Source: Zooshikella harenae
GTDB taxonomy: Bacteria > Pseudomonadota > Gammaproteobacteria > Pseudomonadales > Zooshikellaceae
Direction: 5' to 3'
Assembly (NCBI RefSeq): GCF_018837975.1
Contig: NZ_JAGSOY010000011.1
Coordinates: 1-64,000, forward strand
DNA length: 64,000 nucleotides
This document shows positions 40,451-54,900 of this stretch, piece after piece; the first letter of the stretch is position 1; every line of letters starts with the position of its first letter. The notes under the pieces were generated by a model that was not told the DNA's origin, did not search any database, and worked only from the letters and a program-made list of their open reading frames with translations. The translations under genes were made by a program, and so were the position numbers.

Positions 40451-40705
40451 TCGCTGCTTATCTCCACATCATGTTTCCTCAAAGAGACATACTGCATCAC
40501 GTAAGGTTGCAATTTACTTACGGCCCAAGTGTCATCAAGCATACAAGGCATTAAATGAAATGAAAGGGGTTTTTTCATTGGAAGTGTACTGTATTTGGTG
40601 GATGTTATTAGTGGTGTTGTGCTAATACCAAAGACATCACACCTAAAACAGATACTAGATCAGTTTATTAAGCCTTCATTGAAGAATAACAATAATAATT
40701 GGCTT

Positions 40706-40725
40706 ATACCCTTCGTTACGGGTAT
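40706..40725. repeat. Palindromic unit ATACCCTTCGTTACGGGTAT
   Basis: A full-length copy of the dispersed palindrome in the 40451-41019 gap, between the VOC gene and a putative small RNA. The outer ATACCC/GGGTAT arms are perfect. Confidence 0.7.
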
Positions 40726-40779
40726 TTATTGGCCACGTTAACGTCACTCACTGAAGGTATGATGGCATAAGATTCAAAT

Positions 40780-40890
40780 AAAAAAAAACCCTGACCTTAG
40801 TTGGGGAAGTGTCAGGGTATATTACTTAACTTTGCCTTAGACAAAAAGGGGTAAACTTCAATACGTGTAACTAGACTAGCTAGATATTTG
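40780..40890 (-). ncRNA. Putative small RNA with C-rich terminator loop (copy 3)
   Basis: On the minus strand, CCCTGAC-N15-GTCAGGG (40789-40817) is followed by a run of eight or more T: a clear intrinsic terminator. Its loop contains CTTCCCCAAC. A second C-run (TTTACCCCTTTTT) lies about 35 bases upstream in the transcript. No coding frame fits between here and the EAL gene at 41020, and a TTGAGT-N18-AAATAT promoter-like pair lies at about 40880-40912. It could instead be the distant terminator of the EAL gene. See the two related structures at 41926 and 54790. Confidence 0.45.
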
Positions 40891-41019
40891 CCAAAATCCG
40901 TAGATTTACTCAACACGCTGTGCTATTTACCTACATCTAAGCGACAGGTGTGGACTAACGTTTACTATAGCAGTTGCGAAAGCAATGTAATTTTTACTGG
41001 ATTGTATAATATTTAGCCG

Positions 41020-41796
41020 CTACAAAATATATTGTTGTAACTGTTGTATATGTTGGTGGAGTGTAGTGCTTCCAGCATATAAACTGGATGACGGTAATGA
41101 AAATAAGTTGCCCTGTAGCAAATCGATACCACTACTCAGGGCCAATACGGCCTGTTTCTCTGTTTCTACTGCCCTGATTACACTTAGGCAACCTACCTCA
41201 TTTGCAACTGCAACAAGTTTCGTGAATAGATGACTTGTATGATGCTGGTTCTCTGTTCTGTGTAAATCTCGCAAATCACACTTGATGATGTCAGGTCTTA
41301 TACTTTCAATGTGATAAGCAGTCGTTTTGCTAAGTTCAATGTCATCAAGTGCAACAAGTAGCCCAATTGCCTTATAGGTGTTGGCGACCTCTTTAAGTAA
41401 TCCTTTGTCTTTGAAGGCTTTTTCGCTCAACTCAATAATCAACTGACAGGGTGAAAGAAGGCTTTGCTTTAAGAGATGGTCGAGTAAATACGAGTGACTG
41501 AAATCTTGTCTAGCTAACGCTTCAGTTTGTTTGAAGAACAGCCAATTACCAGATAGATCCTGAGCTGAGAAAGACTGGCAATGTGATATACGGCAAAGTT
41601 GATCAAGTAATACCAATTGATCCAGTCTTGTTGCTAAGCTAAATAGTGCTGCAGGGTTAGCTTTACTTTGCTGATGATTAGACGGAGGTTTGCTGCGGAT
41701 AAACGCTTCATATCCAATCACTTGCTGATGGCGAATATTAATAATTGGCTGGAAGCTGCTACTAAGTGTAAAGCCTTGGTATATCAAGGGTGACAT
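41020..41796 (-). CDS. Degenerate EAL-domain protein
   Basis: The 258-residue protein spans a single EAL domain without sensory domain. Motifs are readable but altered: YEAFIR for EAL-R, WLFFKQTE where V-N-S-P is usual (the metal-binding Asn is missing), LIIELSEKAF for ELTE, VALDDIELSKTT for DDFGTGYSSL (GTG lost), IKCDLRDL for KIDK, RAVETEKQ for EGVET and LLQGNLFS for QGYLFS. Several metal ligands remain, but loss of Asn and loop 6 makes c-di-GMP hydrolysis unlikely, so a binding or protein-interaction role is more plausible. A putative small RNA or distal terminator lies downstream. Confidence 0.8.
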   Translation of the reverse strand: MSPLIYQGFTLSSSFQPIINIRHQQVIGYEAFIRSKPPSNHQQSKANPAALFSLATRLDQLVLLDQLCRISHCQSFSAQDLSGNWLFFKQTEALARQDFSHSYLLDHLLKQSLLSPCQLIIELSEKAFKDKGLLKEVANTYKAIGLLVALDDIELSKTTAYHIESIRPDIIKCDLRDLHRTENQHHTSHLFTKLVAVANEVGCLSVIRAVETEKQAVLALSSGIDLLQGNLFSLPSSSLYAGSTTLHQHIQQLQQYIL

Positions 41797-41925
41797 GATA
41801 ATTCATCATATTCTGCCAAAGGGATAGGTGTTAGTAAGGTGCTCAGCTAAATAAGAGAGGCGCCTAATCTTAAGTTAGATAAAGGCCTAGGCATTGTAAA
41901 AAAAATGCCATATATTTTTTAAGAA

Positions 41926-42030
41926 TAAAAAAAAGCCCTAACTATTGGGGGTGTTAGGGCGTTTGAAGAAATTCCATAAAGTTAAGGAGTGTCTTAACAG
42001 CGCAAATCCTACCAAAATACTAGTTACCAC
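41926..42030 (-). ncRNA. Putative small RNA with CCCCCAA terminator loop (copy 2)
   Basis: On the minus strand, GCCCTAAC and GTTAGGGC (41935-41960) form a perfect 8-bp stem with loop ACCCCCAATA, followed by TTTTTTTTATT. Upstream in the transcript a second small hairpin GTTAAG-ACACTC-CTTAAC is readable. No gene on this strand ends here: the nearest minus-strand gene upstream is far away and the region to 42261 is non-coding, so the terminator should belong to a short independent RNA of about 80-100 nucleotides. No clear promoter could be chosen. Confidence 0.5.
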
Positions 42031-42261
42031 ATATTAGTAGTTATACCCAAGTTGATTCGGTATACACCTAGCAAAATGAACTTAATTCCTTTATATAATA
42101 CTAAGATGAGCTTAGTGCTTAGTAACCTTTTCTTACTCAGCACAGGCGAGTATAGATAGACATACAGCTTATTTGGCAGGATTTGGGCATAAATAATCTG
42201 ATATGTATAAGTGATAACCAAGTTACTTAAAAAGGTTACTTAAATAGAAAAGGTTGTAGGA

Positions 42262-42846
42262 ATGACTTTGGATAGTATTGGTGTATTTGGTTCCGCATTT
42301 AACCCGCCAACGTGTGGTCATTTAGATGCAATCAGACAAGCAGCCCCTCACTTTACAACTATTTTGTTACTACCAGCAGCAGCACATGCCTTCAACAAAC
42401 AGATGCTGGATTTTCGCACTCGCTTAGAACTATTGCAGTGTTTTATAGGTGATTTACCCAAACTGAGCTGTAAAGTGGAAGTATGCACTATTGAACAGGA
42501 TATCTTGAATAAGCAACCACAACAGCCAGTCTATACCTATGATGTACTAAAATTACTGTCAGACCAGTACTCACCTGGAACCAAAATTCGCTTTATTCTT
42601 GGCCCAGATAATGCGCAACCTGAGGTGTGGAAGAAATTTTATAAGGCCGATGAAATAAAGCAGCAATGGGGTACATTTGTTGTAAAAGAACTGGAAGCAG
42701 TACGAAGCACTTTAGTTCGTGAACAGCTTCAAAATTTCTATAAAAATGACGGTGAGGCACACACACATTTACATCAACAGCTTTGTAAAATGCTGACCCC
42801 CAGCGTGTTAATGTACATTCAACAACACCAGTTATACCTGTCTTAA
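42262..42846 (+). CDS. Nicotinate/nicotinamide-nucleotide adenylyltransferase family protein (NadD-like)
   Basis: The 194-residue nucleotidyltransferase has GVFGSAFNPPTCGHLDAI (variant of GxFxPxHxGH), LLLPAAAHAFNKQML, IRFILGPDNAQ and VRSTLVREQL (variant of the ISST-IR motif near the C-terminus). These fit the NMN/NaMN adenylyltransferase fold, which makes NAD from ATP plus nicotinate or nicotinamide mononucleotide. PPTCGH instead of P-H-GH removes the first histidine of the usual HxGH pair, so it may be a divergent paralogue rather than the main NadD. nudF follows 124 bp on, which would pair NAD synthesis and ADP-ribose turnover. Confidence 0.75.
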   Translation: MTLDSIGVFGSAFNPPTCGHLDAIRQAAPHFTTILLLPAAAHAFNKQMLDFRTRLELLQCFIGDLPKLSCKVEVCTIEQDILNKQPQQPVYTYDVLKLLSDQYSPGTKIRFILGPDNAQPEVWKKFYKADEIKQQWGTFVVKELEAVRSTLVREQLQNFYKNDGEAHTHLHQQLCKMLTPSVLMYIQQHQLYLS

Positions 42847-54151: not shown

Positions 54152-54793
54152 ATGAGTTCAGAACAACCTCAACAAACCCTGAATTTTGAGCAAGTCACTT
54201 TTATCAAAAGTGCAGCTAAGCTATCACAATGCCCTGAGGATAAAGGTCGTGAGGTTGCGTTTGCTGGACGGTCCAACGCAGGAAAGTCCAGTGCATTAAA
54301 TGCACTCACTGGCTCAAAAAAGTTGGCGCGTACCAGTAAAACACCTGGTCGTACTCAGCTAATCAATTTTTTTGCGCTTTCAGAAACGTATCGCTTGGTG
54401 GATTTACCTGGTTATGGCTACGCCAAGGTACCTGAGGCAGTTAAAGCCGAATGGCAGAAGCATCTTGAGGATTATTTACAAAACCGTGACTCACTGATTG
54501 GCATAATACTGCTGATGGATATTCGTCATCCATTAAAAGAGTTTGACCAAATAATGCTGGAATGGGCTGAGTACTACCAAAAACCGGTCCATATTCTGTT
54601 AACGAAAAGTGATAAGCTAAAATTTGGTGCTGCCAAACAAGCTGCGTTGAAGATTCAGCGTGAGTTAAAGCCTTTTGGTAACCTCGTTTCGCTACAGTTG
54701 TTTTCTTCTTTAAATAAGATGGGCGTTGACGAGCTAAAAAAGCAGCTGTCTACTTGGCTGTTAGATGAAAAAATAATTAATGTAGAACAATAA
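54152..54793 (+). CDS. engB: Ribosome biogenesis GTP-binding protein EngB (YsxC/YihA)
   Basis: The ATG at 54152 gives 213 residues. A TTG seven codons earlier is possible. The GTPase motifs are G1 [17 protein letters not shown], switch I with [12 protein letters not shown]3 [13 protein letters not shown]4 [10 protein letters not shown] and the G5-like [10 protein letters not shown]. It assists 50S ribosomal subunit assembly and is usually essential. Convergent polA lies 247 bp away with a putative small RNA between, the same order as yihA-spf-polA in E. coli. Confidence 0.95.
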
Positions 54794-54900
54794 AAAATAC
54801 TCCAGTTACTTGGGGGAGATCAGTAACTGGAGCTTTCATAGACTCCGCTAACTTGGGGGCTTAACGGAGGAAGTGCCAACACTAAACACATAAGGAGTAG
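54790..54900 (-). ncRNA. Putative small RNA in the Spot 42/ErsA position (copy 1)
   Basis: On the minus strand a hairpin CUCCGUUAA-GCCCCCAAG-UUAGCGGAG (54843-54869) is followed by a terminator hairpin CUCCAGUUAC-N13-GUAACUGGAG (54800-54832) and UAUUUUUU. Both loops present CCCCCAA. An anti-Shine-Dalgarno-like CUUCCUCC precedes the first hairpin. The locus between polA and engB is where Spot 42 (enterobacteria) and ErsA (Pseudomonas) are encoded, with the same orientation relative to polA. The 5' end is not fixed; the RNA is probably 85-110 nucleotides. Confidence 0.65.

Follow-up and report, generated by a model that had tools for sequence, protein, structure and literature searches.

The double-hairpin RNAs of Rfam family RF02278 occur in three to five homologous copies per genome, measure 57–92 nt and consist of two hairpins; they carry CU-rich stretches complementary to ribosome-binding sites, and some share a common upstream motif (PMC5688073). 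In Bordetella S17, it is the conserved 5' core that pairs, and start regions are blocked (PMC11722255). NmsRA and NmsRB of Neisseria are two related small RNAs (sRNAs) encoded near each other on the same strand, with two anti-Shine-Dalgarno (anti-SD) motifs and with the start regions of their targets as binding sites (PMC5362039). Motifs of the Listeria LhrC RNAs likewise pair with Shine-Dalgarno (SD) sequences (PMC4132741), and the rhizobial RNAs SmelA075 and SmelA099, which have CCUCCUCCC loops, carry an anti-SD motif in the loop of each hairpin (PMC3927594).

Here we analysed a 64,000-nt stretch of the Zooshikella harenae genome (the window; GC content 39%), in which two minus-strand hairpins with C-rich loops had been noted. 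Both are intrinsic terminators (Table 1), and we consider it likely that they are the 3' ends of sibling trans-acting sRNA genes, RNA-B and RNA-A, whose products would block ribosome-binding sites. The RNA-B hairpin, ACCCTGAC-ACTTCCCCAACTAAG-GTCAGGGT followed by a T-run, has an 8-bp stem (−14.6 kcal/mol, z −3.7), and the RNA-A hairpin, GCCCTAAC-ACCCCCAATA-GTTAGGGC followed by T8, folds at −12.9 kcal/mol (z −4.4). The original prediction was right about both hairpins, but had drawn the first at 40789–40817, one base pair short on each side. It had also held that C-loop terminators are unlikely by chance, and that the idea would fall if ordinary gene-end terminators carried such loops equally often. 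In 855 kb of own DNA (the window plus 791 kb of sampled stretches of the 5.9-Mb genome), a strict scan yielded 75 terminators, two of them, the present hairpins, with a CCCC loop; a looser scan yielded 96, three of them with such a loop, the additional one belonging to the polA-engB RNA. These are exactly the three terminators singled out beforehand, every one of them ends a candidate sRNA, and none of the 93 others has a CCCC loop; GGGG was found in no terminator loop in either scan. Because CCCC loops are confined to 3 of 96 terminators, the rate among ordinary terminators is not equal, which favours the finding. A pattern search of the whole genome for CCCCAA-N6-22-T7 returned about 15 distinct places, among which only the RNA-A and RNA-B hairpins were judged by eye to be real terminators; at a third, on contig C326, the possible pairing is limited to CCCC with GGGG. 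C-rich terminator loops may thus be a flag for sRNA genes in AT-rich genomes.

Table 1. Features of the RNA-A/RNA-B region and related loci (window coordinates unless a contig is given)
Feature	Position	Strand	Remarks
RNA-B gene, ~87 nt	40780..40866	-	5' end predicted; homologues in G001–G004
RNA-B terminator hairpin	40788..40818	-	loop ACTTCCCCAACTAAG at 40796–40810, T-run to 40780; identical in Z. ganghwensis
RNA-B upstream C-rich stretch GTTTACCCC	40848..40856	-	GAGTTAACCCCCTTAACTC hairpin in sister genus
RNA-B weak -10-like TAGTCT	40873..40878	-	aligns with TACAAT/TATTAT of relatives
Shared promoter element GTAAATCTACGGAT, RNA-B	40896..40909	-	spacing to the -10-like site only 17 nt
EAL-domain gene between RNA-A and RNA-B	41020..41796	-	PF00563, E 1.4e-33; context only, no necessary part of the unit
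RNA-A gene, ~73 nt	41927..41999	-	ends deduced from the -10 (5') and the terminator (3')
RNA-A terminator hairpin	41935..41960	-	loop ACCCCCAATA at 41943–41952, T8 at 41927–41934; 2 of 8 pairs changed on both sides
RNA-A core GTTAAGACACTCCTTAACTTTATGGAATTTCTT	41966..41998	-	no differences among five genomes from two genera
RNA-A hairpin 1, GUUAAG-ACACUC-CUUAAC, holding anti-SD-like ACUCCUUAA	41981..41998	-	2 of 6 pairs changed on both sides in sister family
RNA-A -10-like TAGGAT	42006..42011	-	at a constant distance from the shared promoter element
Shared promoter element GTATAACTACTAAT, RNA-A	42033..42046	-	TACTAAT, 21 nt before the -10; TACKVAT pattern
nadD-like gene	42262..42846	+	PF01467; constant divergent neighbour of RNA-A
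polA-engB RNA, ErsA-like	54783..54900	-	RF01719, 40.7 bits, E 9.3e-7, gathering 50
RNA-C, own genome, outside the window (L148)	G000:C190:35797-35891	-	R3 match, divergent from trpS

RNA-A appears to be an independent gene. No same-strand gene lies upstream of its terminator, the next gene being the divergent nadD-like one, and the RNA is conserved, in agreement with the proposal that a short RNA, here a predicted transcript, ends at this point. RNA-A is found at the same place in seven genomes of two families, divergent from a nadD-like gene in all cases examined, and its 33-nt core is invariant in five of them. A 241-nt query recovered it at 95% identity in the nearest relative compared, Zooshikella ganghwensis DSM 15267 of the same genus (G001; core on NZ_AUAF01000072.1), and at 87% over a 93-nt stretch in three genomes of a sister genus (g2; G002–G004), which we take to be Spartinivicinus; conservation stops at the T-run. 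The nadD-like proteins beside RNA-A are 46–49% identical between the genera, whereas the 33-nt core is identical, and by this comparison RNA-A is far better conserved than its neighbours. A covariance model built from the five sequences (R1) detected RNA-A in a second family (f2), in G005 and G050, with 34.8 and 30.5 bits; both matches are divergent from a nadD-like gene, a neighbourhood that the search had not used. RNA alignments were re-oriented or fitted to a model in place of default MAFFT. In the seven-sequence alignment, whose fitting to the model favours structure, hairpin 1 and the terminator are paired throughout and 4 of the 14 pairs change on both sides. No shuffle out of 500 reached the observed covariation score, which reflects few independent events, the seven sequences coming from two families (two from one genus). 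Outer stems that RNAalifold placed around hairpin 1 were dropped, as they lack covariation and contain broken pairs. Weak R1 matches in other families (28–37 bits) are ordinary terminators that lack the hairpin-1 motif, and a small coding gene within RNA-A was rejected, the short frame ATGGAATTTCTTCAAACGCCCTAA not being kept as such in f2 or in a third family, f8. Upstream of RNA-A, the Zooshikella genomes have GTATACCGAA and those of f2 have GTATARACCGAAA; the latter also lies just past the RNA-C terminator (see below), on the opposite strand, in the sister genus, and among 136 loci is present only in those covering these places (L041 1468–1480, plus strand; L046 1629–1641 and L055 2035–2047, minus strand; L060–L062).

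RNA-B is weaker in this genome and clear in its relatives. Since its terminator lies about 200 nt past the EAL-domain gene on the same strand, it could, from the sequence of this locus alone, be the terminator of that gene. In Z. ganghwensis the last ~70 nt before the T-run are identical. In the sister genus, a related RNA-B, encoded on the strand of RNA-A and ~5 kb away from it, lies between unrelated genes; it contains GTTGAGTTAACCCCCTTAACTCCTAGGCAAAGTAATTGAT and, after it, a terminator, CCCTGAT-CCCCCTAT-GATCAGGG, and has in common with the RNA-B of the window the blocks ACCCC-TT and AGGCAAAG-TAA and the CCCTGA stem. Hairpin 1 of Zooshikella RNA-B is degenerate, without the perfect hairpin of the relatives.

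Models built from either RNA retrieve the other. On the 855 kb of own DNA, the RNA-B model (R3) scored RNA-B at 89.8 bits and RNA-A second (34.6 bits, E 7.7e-4), ahead of a third match with 21.7 bits (E 0.41); the RNA-A model (R2) found RNA-A first and RNA-B second (24.2 bits, E 0.058; next E 1.3), and RNA-B was also the second-best match of the RNA-A models within the window. These E-values come from a short calibration and are rough, and the strict filters of the many-genome searches lose weak matches. An order-wide R3 search further revealed RNA-C, divergent from trpS, in the own genome, Z. ganghwensis, the sister genus and f2; its core reads GTTAAGT[TG]ACTCGCTTGACTCCTAATTGGTA, and its terminator loop is C-rich. 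A fourth copy, RNA-D, is found in the sister genus (G002:C1:5486385, G003:C9:117192 and G004:C1:2961513); its core is nearly identical to that of RNA-C, and a proV-like gene adjoins it in G002 and G003. When 150 candidates were scored in each of 11 genomes, R3 gave E < 0.1 only for RNA-A, RNA-B, RNA-C and RNA-D. Isolated order-wide R3 matches in four other genomes (E 0.001–0.01) were seen by eye to be without the core motif. A small coding gene was rejected for RNA-C too, the core of which has no ATG. Judged by these similarities, RNA-A, RNA-B and RNA-C in this genome, together with RNA-D in the sister genus, form a sibling family, nearly all members of which have in common a 5' hairpin, CUCC/CCCC motifs, a C-loop terminator and a promoter element. 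The sibling family envisaged by the original prediction therefore stands in modified form: it comprises RNA-A, RNA-B and RNA-C (and RNA-D in g2) but not the polA-engB RNA, which the RNA-A model R2 scores at 16.9 bits (E 2.4), without significance. An exact CCCC(C)AA loop as the family signature was not borne out: loop sequences differ among members (ACCCCCAATA, TTCCCCGATT, CCCCTCCAAAT, ATCCCTCCTAATAC), and conservation is highest in the 5' hairpin and linker.

The shared promoter pattern TACKVAT-N21/22-TWNNNT, for which the background expectation is 0.002 per 40 positions, precedes 30 of 31 genes (RNA-A to RNA-D and the f8 homologues); the exception is RNA-B of the window, which has TACKVAT at a spacing of 17 nt instead of 21–22. 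In most family genes of f1 and f2, TACKVAT is the right half of GTA-N4-TAC. By analogy, its overlap with the −35 region resembles that of a class II activator site, and its presence makes the regulator of the family identifiable. The same element is found in f8, perhaps Endozoicomonadaceae, symbionts of corals and sponges, of which 37 genomes were searched. In one of them, G011, a very C-rich terminator loop, CACCCCTCCTCCTTCCCCCCTC, lies upstream of a nadD-like gene (11 bits, insignificant by itself). This terminator locus is kept in nine f8 genomes, always divergent from a nadD-like/Nudix pair, and has a core like ACTCCCTGAC-TTCTGGTTGGAATTT, which resembles ACTCCTTAAC-TTTATGGAATTT; it is probably a looser version of RNA-A. 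The f8 terminator loops (L088–L096) are ~20 nt long and nearly all C and U (ACCCCTCCTCCTTCCCCCT), richer than those of Zooshikella.

On the computational observations of conserved genes, RNA-A structure, sibling relation and shared promoter element we base a mechanism proposed for RNA-A, RNA-B and RNA-C alike. Each sibling would be a transcript of 70–90 nt from its own promoter with the shared upstream control element, in which a short linker joins a 5' hairpin to an intrinsic terminator with a C-rich loop, and one common regulator would govern all of them. The siblings would act in trans, probably with Hfq, on which the long U tail of the RNAs is consistent with a dependence. The CUCC(U)/CCCC motifs, located in hairpin 1, the linker and the terminator loop, would pair with purine-rich ribosome-binding sites and repress translation; that C-rich motifs may bind such sites had already been suggested by analogy with other sRNAs. 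The anti-SD-like ACUCCU is present in RNA-A (ACUCCUUAA), RNA-C (ACUCCUAAU) and sister-genus RNA-B (ACUCCUAGG), inside hairpin 1 in the first and just past its loop or stem in the other two, and the terminator loops of all siblings carry CCCC, CCUCC or CUCCUC. Two candidate pairings are found in G002 and G003, each an 11-bp match over the SD: one of RNA-C with AUUAGGAGUCA, immediately ahead of the start of a gene that is oppA-like (SBP_bac_5), the other of RNA-A with GUUAAGGAGUG, before a gene judged by eye to be secreted-protease-like. In the own genome, RNA-C is a candidate to pair with AGGAGUCAAGC, which precedes a gene of crotonase-like type (L105). When duplex energies were computed against the start regions in the 855 kb, target prediction gave no excess over shuffled RNAs; as none stands out from these controls, the pairings are leads only, the best of them from two species of one genus. 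The invariant RNA-A core makes target tests direct. It is conceivable, if doubtful, that the three to four siblings constitute an undescribed co-regulated regulon in at least three families of marine or symbiotic Gammaproteobacteria, in which one activator binding TACKVAT at about −35 to −40 would turn on all the siblings, and these would jointly damp nutrient uptake and secreted hydrolases.

One other explanation of the two hairpins involves the EAL-domain gene, which they flank on its own strand both here and in Z. ganghwensis. The RNA-A hairpin could act in cis by attenuating transcription into this gene, with the RNA-B hairpin as its ordinary terminator, and an EAL gene follows RNA-A in G050 as well. 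However, RNA-A is kept in the sister genus, where other genes adjoin it, and in G005, where none is near the RNA on that strand, and sister-genus RNA-B has its place between unrelated genes; a cis-acting role is accordingly quite improbable. That both are ordinary terminators, with C-rich loops arising by chance and conservation imposed by flanking constraint, is hardly credible. The RNA-B terminator does come after a same-strand gene, but the loop type is absent from all other terminators scanned, conservation ends at the T-run, and sibling and structure evidence point the same way; for RNA-A the present data refute this explanation.

An unlikely, though somewhat less remote, alternative is that the siblings act on a protein (Hfq or CsrA-like) or on ribosomal RNA, serving as a sponge or putting a brake on growth. 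When overexpressed, RF02278 RNAs inhibit the growth of E. coli, sister-genus RNA-B is distantly like that family (26.2 bits, gathering 50), and the C-rich motifs are of a generic kind, not specific to particular genes. By contrast, the 33-nt RNA-A core has a specificity well beyond what a generic motif requires, and the RF02278-related S17 acts on mRNA start regions (PMC11722255). Repression of target mRNAs in trans is the reading we prefer.

The polA-engB RNA is at the location expected of ErsA, its RF01719 score is below the gathering threshold, the shared promoter element was looked for before it and is absent, and by these sequence comparisons it is not a sibling of RNA-A or RNA-B; both of its hairpin loops contain CCCCC, and it is probably an ErsA that has diverged, in a relative of Zooshikella. 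ErsA is like RNA-A and RNA-B in having a 5' hairpin and a terminator with C-rich loops in both, but it has another genomic place and no shared promoter element, and RF01719 had no match at 40700–42300 even at E 5. Rfam searched at the gathering threshold gave no match in the window, RNA-A, RNA-B, RNA-C and RNA-D are not in Rfam 15, weak matches to VqmR, VrrA and NsiR1 (E 0.9–3.6) represent chance or terminator likeness only, and a limited literature search found no sRNA work on Zooshikella and its relatives. The best RF02278 score, for sister-genus RNA-B, has an E-value of 0.044, and neither RNA-A, RNA-C nor the RNA-B of the window matches that family. Two RF02278 traits are nevertheless present: a short RNA, its 5' end predicted, that by folds and alignment is nearly all two hairpins, the second being the terminator, and several homologues in one genome that share a motif upstream, which does not imply identity to the Burkholderia motif. 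The RF02278 RNAs (ncS27, bdhR1, Bordetella S17) differ in being betaproteobacterial and in their neighbour genes. NmsRA and NmsRB, likened here by description and not by sequence, have three stem-loops, share about 70% identity and lie in tandem; LhrC1–5 are similarly multi-copy but belong to a Firmicute, have no known sequence relation and take effect without need for Hfq; SmelA075 and SmelA099 are alphaproteobacterial, with three or four hairpins and an identical loop motif. Overall, Zooshikella and its relatives gain a conserved sRNA family with clear siblings, a new multi-copy family absent from Rfam 15, while RNAs of this general kind are already known.
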